A DNA stretch of 64,000 bases from Pseudomonadota bacterium (lineage in GTDB: Bacteria > Pseudomonadota > Gammaproteobacteria > Pseudomonadales > Oleiphilaceae). The notes beneath the pieces were generated by a model. That model was given only the letters and a program-made list of their open reading frames with translations. It ran no database searches and was not told the DNA's origin. The stretch is taken from the NCBI GenBank assembly GCA_002747395.1, contig PDPE01000025.1, forward strand, positions 186,001 through 250,000, given 5' to 3'. The translations under genes were made by a program, and so were the position numbers. This document shows, piece after piece, positions 44,011-50,627 of the stretch (position 1 is its first letter; each line of letters starts with the position of its first letter).

Positions 44011-44343
44011 TCAGTTGTCGAAAGCGTTGCCAAGGTCGCTGATTTCTTTGCTGATACCGTCGCAAACGATATCGCATAAATCGAATACAAATGGTGCACC
44101 AATCGAGAAAAATGCCTGATTGCTTTCCTGACGGCGCTTCACCAGCCCCGCATTGCGCAATGCTGATAAATGCTTGGATATATTGGGTTGGCTGGCATTT
44201 GTCTCGGCGACAAGTTGAGATACGGATTTTTCACCATTTTGCATTGCGTGGAGCAGGGTGAGTCGCATCGGGTCGCCAAGCAGTTTGAATCGCATTGCTA
44301 TCAATTCCAGGGCTTGAGGTGACAGTTTGTTGTCTGTGGTCAT
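44011..44343 (-). CDS. ArsR/SmtB family transcriptional regulator
   Basis: LLGDPMRLTLLHAMQNGEKSVSQLVAETNASQPNISKHLSALRNAGLVKRRQ. Confidence 0.93.
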   Translation of the reverse strand: MTTDNKLSPQALELIAMRFKLLGDPMRLTLLHAMQNGEKSVSQLVAETNASQPNISKHLSALRNAGLVKRRQESNQAFFSIGAPFVFDLCDIVCDGISKEISDLGNAFDN

Positions 44344-44422
44344 GGTGCGAACTCTCGTTTAATGAACTCGATGCGGTTGGGCAGCAAATTATACAGAAAA
44401 GAATAAAATTTTTCTTGATCAT

Positions 44423-44446
44423 ATAACTATTTGGTTATATAGTTAT
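44423..44446. promoter_or_regulatory. Inverted repeat, candidate ArsR operator in the divergent intergenic region
   Basis: ATAACTAT-ttggttat-ATAGTTAT (perfect 8-bp arms) between arsR and the MMPL gene. Confidence 0.6.
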
Positions 44447-44479
44447 CGTATTCAAACACTTTTTCATTGTTTGTTTGGG

Positions 44480-44509
44480 TCATGCAGTTCATGCAGTTCA
44501 TGCAGTTCA
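44480..44509. repeat. 9-bp tandem repeat (TCATGCAGT)x3.3 in the leader of the MMPL gene
   Basis: tcatgcagttcatgcagttcatgcagttca. Confidence 0.95.
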
Positions 44510-44539
44510 ACGAGTTATAACAAGACGCAGGTACTACAA

Positions 44540-47143
44540 ATGGTTGCTTCCAATTATCGTCCGGGTAGCGGAGGTTCAGCTCTGGTGAGCTGGTCCATGT
44601 TACATGCCAAATGGGTTTTTCGCATTTTGTTGATCGCCGTGCTACTTGTCGGTGCGCAAATCTTCAGGATTCAAGTGGATACAGATCCGGAAAACATGCT
44701 GGCACCTGATCATCCCGAGCGGGTGCTGCATGATCAAATCAGGCACTCTTTCGGTTTGTCCGACATGCTGGTTGTCGGAATTGTCAACAAAAAGCATCCC
44801 GATGGTGTGTTTAATGCCGAGTCACTGTCTCTGGTCTCTGATATATCGAAATTTGCCCTGGGAATAGAAGGTGTCGTTCAGAAAGACCTGATGTCGCTGA
44901 GTACTGTTGACGATATAAAACAGATGGGGCCGGGTACCATCCAGTTTCGCTGGATGATGGATCAGGTACCCGAAACCACAGAGAAAGCCGCGGCTATTCG
45001 TGAGGCGGTATCGCGCCTGCCCATGTTGCAAAACACCCTGGTGTCTGGCGATGGTCAGGCAGTGGCAATCTATGTGCCCATTGTGGCCAAGAGTGAAAGC
45101 TATCGGGTAGCGACAGAATTGAGAGACTTCGTGACACAAAAAAATCCGTCTGATGAGTTCTACATCACCGGCCTGCCCGTCGCGGAAGACACCTTTGGTG
45201 TGGAAATGTTCATCCAGATGGCAATATCAGCCCCTGCTGCTGCCTTGATGATATTTTTGCTGATGTGGCTGTTTTTCCGAAATGTTCCCCTGGTTACCTC
45301 TCCCATGATTATGGCTATGGCTGTGGTGATTCTGATCATGGGGTTAATGATCGGTATGGGTTATACCGTACATATTATGAGTTCAATGATCCCGATATTC
45401 CTGATGCCCATTGCCGTAGTGGACTCGGTTCACATCCTGTCCGAATTTGCTGATGATTACCGGGAAGGTGATGACGTCAAGGTTGTGGTCAGGCGCGTTA
45501 TGGCCAATCTGTTCAAGCCCATGCTGTTTACCTCTATCACCTCATCAATCGGTTTTGCTTCATTGGCATTGACGCCCATTCCACCTGTACAGGTTTTTGG
45601 TCTGTTTGTCGCAGTCGGCATTATGTTGGCGTTCTTCCTGACCCTGACCTTTATTCCTGCCTATATTGCCAGTCTCAAGCCCGAAACGTTGCGAAAACTG
45701 GCCTCTCGTACTCACAGGGTTGACGGCAGTCAGGGTCGTTTTGCCCGGATCCTGAATCAGATGGGAACTCGTTCCCTGCAATTCAAAAAGGGAGTGCTGG
45801 TCTTTTTTGTGGCATTGATTGGTCTCAGCTTCTGGGGTATTCAGCAAATAAAAATCAACGATAACCCGGTTCGCTGGTTCGCCGAAGGACATGAAATAAG
45901 ACAGGCCGACAAAGTGATGAACGCCCATTTTGCTGGCACCTATGAAGTCTACCTGTCTCTGGAGTCCGATCATGCCGAACAAATTTGGCGGGAATTTAAA
46001 ACCCGTGCTGAATCAATGGCACGGCCAGTGCCTGGTCTGTCAACGTGGCTGAATGAGCAGTTCGACCTGATTGATGAGAGCGAGGAAGAGCCGTTCAATA
46101 CACTTGTCACCGTACTGGATAATGCGCTATTTGACGGGGAATACCAGAATCGGGAAGCAGTGCTGGAGGAGTTGCTGGAAGCGGCCTCGGTGCAACAGGC
46201 CAAAGCCCGCTATTTCCAGCAACCTGAAGCGCTGGCCTACATTGGTCGATTGCAGGAATACCTGAATGGCACCGGCCTGGTTGGTAAAAGCAACTCCCTG
46301 GCCGACCTGGTGAAAACTGTGTACCGTGAGTTGAAAGGCGAGAAAGGGACGCTTGCAATACCCGAAACCGCACAGGGAGTGGCCGATACCCTGCTCAGTT
46401 TTCAGGGGTCACACCGTCCTCAGGATCTTTGGCACCTGGTCACGCCGGATTACAATTCGACCGTTATCTGGCTGCAGTTAAAATCCGGTGACAATCAGGA
46501 TATGGAAGCCGTGCTGGATTCGGTGAACCGCTTTTTCGAGAACAACCCCCTGCCGGAGGGCGTGACGGCAAACTGGGCGGGATTAACCTATATCAATGTG
46601 GTCTGGCAGGATGCCATGGTCAAAGGGATGGTGGCCAGCCTGCCGGGTTCCTTTGTGATGGTGTTTATCGTGATGGTGATTCTGTTCCGTTCGTTGCTAT
46701 TTGGTGTGCTGGCGATGCTGCCATTGACAATCACCATTATGTTTATTTACGGCCTGATCGGAATCATTGGCAAGGACTATGATATGCCAATCGCTGTGCT
46801 TTCTTCCCTGACCCTTGGCCTGTCAGTGGACTTTGCCATCCATTTCCTTCAGCGAAGCCGAGAAATATACAGTCAAACCGGTAATTGGAAGGAAACCGTG
46901 TCACTTATGTTTGATGAGCCGGCGCGTGCCATTGGCAGGAACGCCACGGTCATTGCGCTCGGGTTTACCCCCTTGCTGCTTGCTCCTCTGGTGCCATACA
47001 ACACCGTTGGTGTGTTTCTGGCCGCAATCATGCTGGTTTCCTGTCTTGTGACGTTGGCACTGTTACCCGCTATTATGGGTATGACAGGAGCCAGGCTGTT
47101 TGCCGGACGGGGTACCGGGGACTCAGAACAAAATCCATCCTGA
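44540..47143 (+). CDS. RND superfamily/MMPL transporter
   Basis: About 867 aa from MVASNYRPGSGG; two MMPL halves (PIAVVDSVHILSEFADDYREG; LGLSVDFAIHFLQRSREIY). Confidence 0.92.
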   Translation: MVASNYRPGSGGSALVSWSMLHAKWVFRILLIAVLLVGAQIFRIQVDTDPENMLAPDHPERVLHDQIRHSFGLSDMLVVGIVNKKHPDGVFNAESLSLVSDISKFALGIEGVVQKDLMSLSTVDDIKQMGPGTIQFRWMMDQVPETTEKAAAIREAVSRLPMLQNTLVSGDGQAVAIYVPIVAKSESYRVATELRDFVTQKNPSDEFYITGLPVAEDTFGVEMFIQMAISAPAAALMIFLLMWLFFRNVPLVTSPMIMAMAVVILIMGLMIGMGYTVHIMSSMIPIFLMPIAVVDSVHILSEFADDYREGDDVKVVVRRVMANLFKPMLFTSITSSIGFASLALTPIPPVQVFGLFVAVGIMLAFFLTLTFIPAYIASLKPETLRKLASRTHRVDGSQGRFARILNQMGTRSLQFKKGVLVFFVALIGLSFWGIQQIKINDNPVRWFAEGHEIRQADKVMNAHFAGTYEVYLSLESDHAEQIWREFKTRAESMARPVPGLSTWLNEQFDLIDESEEEPFNTLVTVLDNALFDGEYQNREAVLEELLEAASVQQAKARYFQQPEALAYIGRLQEYLNGTGLVGKSNSLADLVKTVYRELKGEKGTLAIPETAQGVADTLLSFQGSHRPQDLWHLVTPDYNSTVIWLQLKSGDNQDMEAVLDSVNRFFENNPLPEGVTANWAGLTYINVVWQDAMVKGMVASLPGSFVMVFIVMVILFRSLLFGVLAMLPLTITIMFIYGLIGIIGKDYDMPIAVLSSLTLGLSVDFAIHFLQRSREIYSQTGNWKETVSLMFDEPARAIGRNATVIALGFTPLLLAPLVPYNTVGVFLAAIMLVSCLVTLALLPAIMGMTGARLFAGRGTGDSEQNPS

Positions 47144-47165
47144 TACACATTTTGGAGAGATAACC

Positions 47166-47975
47166 ATGAACGACTTTGGCTTATTTATGAAAAGACTACT
47201 GTTGGCAGCGTTTGGCTGCATGGGCTTTTTCAGCCTGGCACAGGCCGACCTCGGCCCTGAAGAAATTGTCGCAAAGGCCAATATTGCCGCTCTGTACAGT
47301 GGTGCAGATGGCAGGGCGGAAGCGCGGATGAAAATTGTCGATGCCCGGGGGCGCACCCAGTATCGGCAGTTCACCATGCTGAGGAAGGATATCGAGGATG
47401 GAGGCGACCAGTTGTTCTACGTGATTTTCAGCCGCCCTTCCGAGGTTGCCAGAACCGTCTTTCTGGTCAATAAACACCCGGGAACTGATGATGAACGGTG
47501 GTTATACCTGCCCGGCCTGGATCTGGTCAAGCGAATCGCGGCAGGTGACAAGCGAACCAGCTTTGTCGGCTCGCACTTCTTCTACGAAGACATATCCGGG
47601 CGCGATATCCAGGCTGACACCTATCGATTGCTTGAATCTGACCAGGATCATTATGTAATAGAAGCGACACCCAAAGACGCAGAGGCAGTCGAGTTTTCCC
47701 GTTATGTTATCACCATAGACAAATCAAACTTTTTACCGGTCAGGGCCGAGTATTTCGATAAGCAGGGCGTGGCTTATCGCCTGGCTGAAACGGTTAAGGT
47801 GGATGTGATAGACGGTCACCCCACGGGCACCCGATTGGTGATGAAAGATTTGCGGGATGGTGGGCAAACCATGACCGAAATGCGCTTTGTCAACTACGAT
47901 ATCGGTGTGCCGGAAACTGTGTTCACCGAGCGCAGCATGAGAATACCGCCAAAAGACTGGATAAAAAGGAGGTAG
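47166..47975 (+). CDS. LolA-like outer membrane lipoprotein-sorting protein
   Basis: Signal peptide; PSEVARTVFLVNKHPGTDDERWLYLPGLDLVKRIAAGDKRTSFVGSHFFYEDISGR. Confidence 0.88.
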   Translation: MNDFGLFMKRLLLAAFGCMGFFSLAQADLGPEEIVAKANIAALYSGADGRAEARMKIVDARGRTQYRQFTMLRKDIEDGGDQLFYVIFSRPSEVARTVFLVNKHPGTDDERWLYLPGLDLVKRIAAGDKRTSFVGSHFFYEDISGRDIQADTYRLLESDQDHYVIEATPKDAEAVEFSRYVITIDKSNFLPVRAEYFDKQGVAYRLAETVKVDVIDGHPTGTRLVMKDLRDGGQTMTEMRFVNYDIGVPETVFTERSMRIPPKDWIKRR

Positions 47976-47981
47976 CCTCCA

Positions 47982-49355
47982 ATGAAAGCGTCACTGCGGA
48001 ATGTCGTGGCCCTGTCCTTGATTCTGGGTCAGACAACCTTGCCTGCATTGGCCGGGAACAGTGCCACCGGAAATGATGCGGCATGGGATGAATCCGGCTT
48101 TGATTTGACACAGCAAGAGTGGTCTGACGACTGGGGTGATTCAGGCTGGGAGCAGCCGGATGAAGAGCAGGCCGCATCATTGAACTGGAGTGGCTTCGGC
48201 GAAATTCTGGTCGGTACGAGAGTGCAAGACAGCCCGGCGATTGATAGCGACTTTACTGCCGGAGAGGCCATGATCAGACTGAACGCAGATAGCTATTTCG
48301 GAGACTGGTTTTTTTCCGGCCAGGGCGACCTCTTTGCTGACGGGGTGACCGACAGGTATTCCCTGTCTGTTCGGGAGTTATCCCTGTCTGGAAGCCTGTC
48401 TGACCATATGGATGTCAGAGTTGGGCGATTTGTTTCTACATGGGGAACCGGTGACCTGCTTTTTCTCAATGACCTGTTTGCCAAGGACTGGGAGGCCTTT
48501 TTTGCCGGCAGGGAAATGAACTATCTCAAGCGGGCATCCAATTCGATCAAGTTCGGTTTTTTTCTTGAATCGTTCAATATTGATGTTGTCTGGACACCGG
48601 TATTCAGTCCCGACCGGATAATTGATGGTGAGCGTTTCAGTTATTTCAATCCGATGGCGGGTCAGATCGTTGCGGCCGATCCACGCCTTATCAGCGCAAA
48701 GCCGGACAAAACCCTGGCAAATGGCGAGTTTGCCGTCAGAGCTTACGGGCGGGTTGCCGACTATGATCTGGCAGCCTATGCCTGGCGAGGCTTTTTCAAA
48801 CAGCCTCTGGGGTTGGATACATCGAAGTCCTTACCGAACTTCCCCCGCCTGAACGGTATTGGCGGCAGCGTTCAGGGAAATCTGTACAAGGGTATCTTCA
48901 ACCTGGAGGCCTCCTGGTATGACTCGGCAGATGACCGGGATGGAGACGATCCGTCGGTACCGAATAGTCAGCTGCGATTGTTGCTCGGGTATCAACAGGA
49001 ACTGGTCAAAAACCTGACCTTTTCAACCCAGGCCTATGCCGAGTGGACGATGCAGCATGATGAGCTGATAGCCAACAGCCCGAGGCCCGGGTTTGAAACG
49101 GAAGAGCTGCGCCAGGCACTGAGTGTCCGGCTCACCCATCAGGCGATGATGAACAACCTGACAAGCAGTGTCATGCTGTTTGTTTCACCGACTGATAAGG
49201 ATTACTTCCTGCTGCCATCGATGGCGTACCGGGTCAACGACCGCCTGAGTGGTGAAATAGGGGGGCGCCTGTTTGGTGGTCGGCAAACACATACCTTTTA
49301 TGGTCAACATAAAACCAACAGCAATCTGTACGGCAGGGTTCGTATGCGATTTTAA
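47982..49355 (+). CDS. Outer membrane beta-barrel protein (DUF1302-like), 7 bp after the LolA-like gene
   Basis: 457 aa; signal peptide; VRVGRFVSTWGTGDLLFLNDLFAKDW; terminal VRMRF. Confidence 0.75.
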   Translation: MKASLRNVVALSLILGQTTLPALAGNSATGNDAAWDESGFDLTQQEWSDDWGDSGWEQPDEEQAASLNWSGFGEILVGTRVQDSPAIDSDFTAGEAMIRLNADSYFGDWFFSGQGDLFADGVTDRYSLSVRELSLSGSLSDHMDVRVGRFVSTWGTGDLLFLNDLFAKDWEAFFAGREMNYLKRASNSIKFGFFLESFNIDVVWTPVFSPDRIIDGERFSYFNPMAGQIVAADPRLISAKPDKTLANGEFAVRAYGRVADYDLAAYAWRGFFKQPLGLDTSKSLPNFPRLNGIGGSVQGNLYKGIFNLEASWYDSADDRDGDDPSVPNSQLRLLLGYQQELVKNLTFSTQAYAEWTMQHDELIANSPRPGFETEELRQALSVRLTHQAMMNNLTSSVMLFVSPTDKDYFLLPSMAYRVNDRLSGEIGGRLFGGRQTHTFYGQHKTNSNLYGRVRMRF

Positions 49356-49375
49356 TCAGGCAAGGAGAATGAAAA

Positions 49376-49579
49376 ATGACAATTAATGAAGGTCTAAGAA
49401 TGCTAGCCGGTGTTTTCATTATTTTGAGTGTGATACTGGCCCATTATGTCCATGAATACTGGCTGTTTTTTACCCTGTTCATTGGAGCCAACCTGCTTCA
49501 GTCGGCATTTACCAAATGGTGTCCGGCTATGTGGGTGTTGTCCAGGATGGGGTTTAGGAAGGAAGTTGTTGCGGAGTGA
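49376..49579 (+). CDS. DUF2892 (YgaP C-terminal-like) small membrane protein
   Basis: 67 aa: MTINEGLRMLAGVFIILSVILAHYVHEYWLFFTLFIGANLLQSAFTKWCPAMWVLSRMG. Confidence 0.85.
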   Translation: MTINEGLRMLAGVFIILSVILAHYVHEYWLFFTLFIGANLLQSAFTKWCPAMWVLSRMGFRKEVVAE

Positions 49580-50045: not shown

Positions 50046-50105
50046 TTTGCTACGGTGCAATTTTTTGTATGCATTGAGAATAATCTGTTAGACGAGAGGT
50101 TTATT

Positions 50106-50627
50106 ATGTTTAGACAGTCATTGGTGGCGATTGCTTTTGCGGGGGCAGCTTTATCGGCTCAAGCAGTTGTTTTTACTGACGTATATGATCCTGATCCAGA
50201 TATTTCCGTTAATGGCGGCTGGATTTATTTTGAACACAACTTTGATACCACCCTGGGTGTGATTGATTCTGCATCACTTGAAATGTCTGTATCTGATATT
50301 GACTGGGATACCGATGTTTTGGTTTCTGTCGGTAATAACTGGGAGACTGTTGGTGTTTTGGATGGTACTACCTGGGCGTGGGATACAAGCACTTACACTT
50401 ATGATTTCGATCTTGGTACCAGTATGCTTCAGGAGCTTGCGTCCACCGGTTCTTTACAGTTTGCCTTTCAGGAGTCTTTTTCTTCTATAACAACAGCTGT
50501 TTATGAAGCATCAACCTTGACTGTGAACTACACTCCGAACTCGGTTCCAGAGCCTGCATCATTAGCCTTGTTTGGCCTTGGCCTTGCCGGTTTGGGTCTG
50601 GCCCGTCGTCGTAAATATCAGGCATAA
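50106..50627 (+). CDS. PEP-CTERM sorting domain-containing protein
   Basis: Signal peptide MFRQSLVAIAFAGAALSAQA; C-terminus VPEPASLALFGLGLAGLGLARRRKYQA. Confidence 0.95.
   Translation: MFRQSLVAIAFAGAALSAQAVVFTDVYDPDPDISVNGGWIYFEHNFDTTLGVIDSASLEMSVSDIDWDTDVLVSVGNNWETVGVLDGTTWAWDTSTYTYDFDLGTSMLQELASTGSLQFAFQESFSSITTAVYEASTLTVNYTPNSVPEPASLALFGLGLAGLGLARRRKYQA

Follow-up and report, generated by a model that had tools for sequence, protein, structure and literature searches.

The analysed stretch (hereafter the window) comprises 64,000 nt of contig PDPE01000025.1, positions 186,001 to 250,000, and all coordinates below are window positions. Within it, an arsR gene diverges from a four-gene pump operon, and all five open reading frames could be located, together with a promoter and a putative operator:

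44011–44343, minus strand: ArsR-family repressor, 110 aa (HTH_5, 4.7e-16; HTH_metalloreg, 75 bits against a cut-off of 55)
44415–44443, plus strand: predicted sigma70-type promoter of the pump operon, TTGATC (44415–44420), 17-bp spacer, TATAGT (44438–44443), from a sequence scan
44421–44440, no strand assigned: putative ArsR operator ATATAACTATTTGGTTATAT, overlapping the promoter spacer and the −10 box
44540–47143, plus strand: MMPL/RND inner-membrane pump, 867 aa (PF03176, 1.3e-38)
47166–47975, plus strand: LolA_like periplasmic carrier, 269 aa, with an N-terminal signal-peptide-like stretch (PF17131, 4.6e-52)
47982–49355, plus strand: outer-membrane beta-barrel, probably of the DUF1302 type, 457 aa (AlphaFold2 model; PF06980 matches of homologues)
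49376–49579, plus strand: YgaP-like TM (DUF2892) protein, 67 aa (PF11127, 1.8e-11)

The preliminary description of this DNA had reported an arsR divergent from four tightly spaced genes, and its coordinates, strands and intergenic gaps (22, 6 and 20 bp from pump to LolA_like to barrel to YgaP-like TM gene) all match ours; the Pfam entry that it called DUF2892 is PF11127, YgaP-like_TM. Directly 3′ of the operon lies a gene for a PEP-CTERM protein (50055–50627; PF07589, 2.5e-8), which points to exosortase-type sorting of proteins in this organism.

Using a profile built from eight pumps, we identified 537 relatives among the named genomes, 80 of which were retained. The order MMPL-LolA-barrel was found at 86 of 89 loci, with the other three meeting a contig end, and the YgaP-like TM gene was present at 59 and an ArsR gene at 51 of these loci. 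The preliminary description had let its proposal of a trans-envelope unit hinge on whether the neighbourhood recurs in other genomes; the genes do recur, conserved as such a unit across relatives, which rules out a chance neighbourhood. The unit occurs mostly in Gammaproteobacteria and, rearranged, in one fusobacterium, Ilyobacter, where the orthologous trio (46, 48 and 34% identity) is ordered LolA-barrel-pump. The pump is patchy in evenly drawn genomes (14 of 370 of the class; 9 of 398 of the phylum at a stricter limit), and the other genomes sampled from the family to which the window belongs have neither barrel nor pump, so the operon seems to be often gained or lost. A mobile or phage element was considered and rejected, since relatives were found in no viral contigs and in a single plasmid record, that of a 0.96-Mb replicon, and composition showed no clear break across the operon in the window. 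The same genome also encodes a second, paralogous MMPL / LolA_like / DUF1302 set (L025:5597-10153, G000:C19), which is 20–27% identical by segment.

The MMPL domain of the pump (PF03176) scored 133 bits against a gathering cut-off of 20.5, in two stretches, and the best NCBIfam match was HAE3 (TIGR00921) at 177.6 bits, below the curated cut-off of 351.9. Scores against lipid transporter profiles (HpnN, 93 bits; BstA, 29 bits; MmpL3, 26 bits) were far under the curated cut-offs. Intramembrane Asp295 (VVDSVH) and Asp764 (SVDFAIH) are invariant in the pump and its relatives (n = 8), and from what is known of RND proteins we infer that they may serve proton coupling. The carrier scored 176.8 bits for PF17131 (gathering cut-off 30), and solved structures related to it are 9tp6, 4z48 and 3bk5. 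We discarded a role in lipoprotein sorting, as "lipoprotein-sorting" is merely the Pfam name of PF17131 and no support for such a role was found.

The window's barrel protein had no Pfam match at E ≤ 0.1, and 32 of its 48 aligned homologues match DUF1302 (PF06980), the best at 1.2e-12. The AlphaFold2 model made with these 48 homologues is a confident beta-barrel (pLDDT 84.5), and its nearest folds were AlgE and porins, with a TM score of only about 0.5; this was too weak, and therefore no function was transferred to the barrel. The mature N-terminus is an acidic, Trp-rich tail (about residues 36–67; 48087–48183) that AlphaFold2 predicts to be disordered. The motif DDWGDxxWxEE is present in most homologues, and by a rough count a tail with at least two Trp and at least eight Asp/Glu occurs in 61 of 80 of them. 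The LolA-like carrier might dock onto this tail in the periplasm. The YgaP-like TM protein (PF11127, 44.4 bits against a cut-off of 25.3) consists of the TM domain only, without the fused rhodanese domain of YgaP, and carries a single conserved Cys, in W-C-P in the window and F-C-P in most relatives; a Cys that had earlier been called conserved-looking is thus retained across linked homologues.

The pump start codon is the ATG at 44540, with a TTG also present upstream in frame. The putative operator sits between the −35 and −10 boxes and overlaps the latter, and a longer perfect inverted repeat, ATAACTAT-N8-ATAGTTAT, lies within the promoter region at 44423–44446; the pattern derived from the repeat has one site in the window against 0.09 expected. 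Aligning five arsR-pump intergenic regions (the window's and those of four other divergons, L022, L023, L031 and L062) revealed a common layout, TTGACC / ATATAACTATATAGTTATAT / TATTAT, with little else conserved. With this layout common to five divergons and the repeat rare in the window, comparison gives good evidence for repression of the pump operon by the divergent ArsR through a conserved putative operator footprint inside the promoter; control by ArsR had been proposed earlier. The SqrR box, ATTC-N8-GAAT, had no match upstream of any linked arsR, and the SqrR operator is therefore not common to these ArsRs. Three tandem CATGCAGTT repeats (44480–44508) lie in the leader between promoter and pump start and are absent from the aligned relatives.

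The linked ArsRs fall into two classes by their cysteine arrangement. Class I (n = 41) has an alpha2 Cys and a C-terminal Cys in 40 of 41 members, the pair found in the persulfide sensors SqrR, BigR and YgaV; in YgaV and BigR, this pair forms a polysulfide or disulfide bridge (PMC9774250). Class II consists of nine regulators, the window's included, plus those of L158–L160, L166 and L167, and its only cysteines form a C-x3-C motif in the last helix that is invariant in every member seen. In the window's ArsR, alpha2 reads LTLLHAM and FDLCDIVC stands in the C-terminal helix, so that the C-x3-C pair of the preliminary description is confirmed and the SqrR/BigR/YgaV pair is lacking. The BigR equivalog (NF040642, cut-off 155) was not reached by the window's ArsR (51 bits) or by two class I members (90 and 99 bits). 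Class II operons form deep branches in a quick pump tree, and the class II arsRs of G152 and G480 are also divergent from the pump. Class II ArsRs 62–66% identical to the window's occur without a pump operon in L163, L164 and L165 (genomes G105, G039 and G133), where the gene diverges from one for an ApbE-like lipoprotein; we dropped these as a clue to the signal, since this sole neighbour is uninformative.

A regulator of the ArsR/SmtB family with two cysteines one helical turn apart could bind a soft metal, and this raises the alternative that the unit exports metals, metalloids or organometals, in which C-x3-C would let ArsR bind organotin or a soft metal and a hydrophobic metal complex would be removed by the pump. 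Tributyltin derepresses E. coli ygaVP (PMC9774250), and the Ilyobacter trio lies 3′ of selD, yedF and a Se/S-carrier gene, placing selenium genes at that locus. However, the class I pair is that of persulfide sensors, and no metal-resistance family was recurrent beside the operon across loci; we consider metal export very unlikely.

The neighbour families that recur most, unselected by function, include rhodanese, SQR, Blh-type persulfide dioxygenase, TauE, cytochrome bd, a FisR-like sigma54 activator and a CsoR-type regulator. Of 78 named loci, 49 carried one or more genes of the types SQR, PDO, rhodanese, FisR-like, BigR-like or CsoR-like, compared with 1 of 39 control regions (random 20-kb regions from operon-bearing genomes, to which few genomes contribute). 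At loci of evenly and independently drawn genomes, sulfur genes were present in 14 of 26 cases, and none of those sought in the remaining 12. The enrichment p-values (2e-11 and 2e-6) assume an independence that related genomes violate, and because of this and the few genomes behind the control, the variety of sensor types weighs more than these values. A true SQR is encoded beside the operon in relatives (A. ferrooxidans SQR family, E 1.5e-158), and the Blh-type dioxygenase, rhodanese, TauE and FisR-like activator were also confirmed by profile. Of the class-drawn genomes, 8 have both SQR and the pump, and in 4 of these the two genes are no more than 3 kb apart. Genome-wide, the co-occurrence of SQR with the operon (9 of 21 operon genomes against about 103 of 356 others) was too weak to be retained as support, and SQR is not required at that scale.

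The arrangements vary between loci. At L171, the operon is followed by FisR-like, SQR, PDO and TauE genes, and at L176 and L177, a rhodanese gene lies immediately 3′ of the YgaP-like TM gene, a pair that resembles a split YgaP; at L054, L064 and L074, the rhodanese gene comes next after the barrel instead. Seven Oceanospirillaceae loci (L027, L042, L047, L051, L055, L061 and L068) carry, about 1.5 kb past the barrel and in the opposite orientation, a larger YgaP-like TM gene, with a GGDEF gene in between.

Since AmeABCD-like parts are found alongside reactive-sulfur sensors and enzymes, the simplest account, and in our view the most likely one, is that the unit exports hydrophobes in the manner of AmeABCD and is induced by reactive sulfur. 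The repeated placement of the relatives' unit next to sulfide and persulfide detoxification genes suggests a possible role in exporting hydrophobic sulfur or in shielding membranes against it. Spelled out in full, as a proton-driven hydrophobe exporter that is repressed by a thiol-based ArsR, triggered by reactive sulfur and part of the sulfur-detoxification response, with zero-valent sulfur or a lipid-like adduct as its likely cargo, the proposal is one that we favour tentatively and with somewhat less than even confidence. We infer that a small hydrophobic molecule would be moved outward, driven by protons, from the MMPL/RND pump in the inner membrane to the LolA-like carrier in the periplasm and on to the barrel in the outer membrane. 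To repress, ArsR would sit between the −35 and −10 boxes, and modification of its cysteines would release it from the operator, with sulfide, persulfide or polysulfide as the probable family-wide trigger. The likeliest cargo would be polysulfane or S8 that has partitioned into the inner membrane, or a lipid-like adduct thereof, and the YgaP-type protein and rhodanese could pass sulfane sulfur on at the membrane. A narrower idea is that the unit, in Gammaproteobacteria and, rearranged, in Fusobacteriota, is dedicated to carrying zero-valent sulfur in hydrophobic form (polysulfane or S8) out across the envelope; sulfane sulfur from SQR or rhodanese would enter the pump and leave by way of carrier and DUF1302-type barrel. 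In our judgement this is unlikely.

Reactive sulfur might also be the signal and not the cargo, with the unit carrying a lipid of the envelope, or a hydrophobic metabolite that has been damaged, to the outer membrane and so giving resistance to sulfide, polysulfide or low oxygen. The RND relatives HpnN, BstA and MmpL3 move lipids (the profile matches are weak), the carrier belongs to the LolA superfamily, and cytochrome bd genes are also near the operon at 6 named loci. Yet it is sulfur-transfer genes that recur beside the operon, even in the fusobacterium, and no lipid-biosynthesis family was recurrent there across loci; we consider this explanation rather unlikely. The lipid-trafficking route of the preliminary description likewise found no specific support, as the neighbourhoods favour reactive sulfur over lipids, metals and fatty acids.

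Alternatively, the unit could be a general efflux system for hydrophobes (a solvent, terpene or fatty acid), like AmeABCD, whose kinds of parts it shares, with the sulfur neighbours reflecting a stress island shared in some lineages. The L025 set, which is preceded by a multihaem-cytochrome-like gene and has none of the sought sulfur genes nearby, agrees with this and indicates that three-part sets of this kind extend beyond the sulfur-linked subfamily. A single stress island is nevertheless hard to uphold, because the linked sensors (BigR-like, FisR-like and CsoR-like) are of unrelated types and the gene order in Fusobacteriota differs, and we regard this account as distinctly improbable.

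For the window's own operon, the induction by reactive sulfur that we favour has to be read through its relatives. The window holds none of the sulfur genes sought, and its genome (estimated 93% complete) yielded no homologue to the SQR query and none to the Blh-type dioxygenase query; for this reason, and because operon genomes do not all need SQR, the connection to sulfur, strong across the family, is weaker in this member. An earlier guess of thiol or sulfide sensing is strongly backed by the ArsRs and neighbours of relatives, but not by a SqrR/BigR pair in the window's ArsR, which, judging by family context, may sense reactive sulfur as the rest of the family would.

In the literature searched, no paper links this unit to sulfide, and none describes a dedicated exporter that would account for the removal across two membranes of zero-valent sulfur in hydrophobic form, or of the damage that it does to membranes. 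As the unit recurs beside unrelated types of sulfur sensor and sulfide-oxidation enzymes, it supplies concrete genes with which to test such removal, in marine genera that can be cultured, among them Alteromonas, Marinobacterium and Idiomarina. It also offers a hypothesis of function for three poorly understood families (LolA_like PF17131, DUF1302 and free-standing YgaP-like TM proteins), and a second ArsR class with an invariant C-x3-C is described.

Several characterised systems resemble parts of the unit. In the bigR operon, the SqrR regulon and ygaVP, a two-cysteine ArsR like that of most relatives has SQR, persulfide dioxygenase, rhodanese or YgaP-type TM partners nearby, whereas no RND, LolA or barrel component of these systems is reported in the literature searched, and the window's ArsR differs from theirs in cysteine arrangement and putative operator. 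The FisR-controlled pdo-sqr-tauE operon of Acinetobacter and Cupriavidus (PMC7315123) has its FisR-like activator, SQR, PDO and TauE counterparts directly beside the unit in L171, and some of them in other loci of Alteromonadaceae; the characterised operon lacks a trans-envelope exporter (PMC7315123). HpnN, BstABC and MmpL3 share the RND fold with the pump, but their substrates are lipids, the similarity is weak and the operons are different.

The closest likeness is to AmeABCD, the apolar-monoterpene exporter of Castellaniella defragrans, for which hydrophobe efflux linked to the proton motive force was shown by deletion and Nile Red assays (PMC6394551). There, an HAE3-like RND pump, a LolA-superfamily periplasmic protein and a DUF1302 outer-membrane protein are encoded together (PMC6394551), as are an RND pump nearest to HAE3, a LolA-superfamily carrier and a probable DUF1302-type barrel here, and by analogy efflux of hydrophobes is probably the task of the window's operon. 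The two differ in the carrier, a 451-aa DUF1329 protein in AmeABCD and a 269-aa LolA_like (PF17131) protein here, and in the YCF48-like AmeC, for which the window's operon has no gene and a YgaP-type protein in its place. This YgaP-like TM protein and the ArsR are additional to AmeABCD, and the neighbours of the family are sulfur and not monoterpene genes. The label "uncharacterised" in the preliminary description thus holds for this subfamily, but not for its three-part layout, which is already known from AmeABCD (PMC6394551); what is new here is the signal side, that is, the link of the unit to sulfide and persulfide sensors and enzymes.
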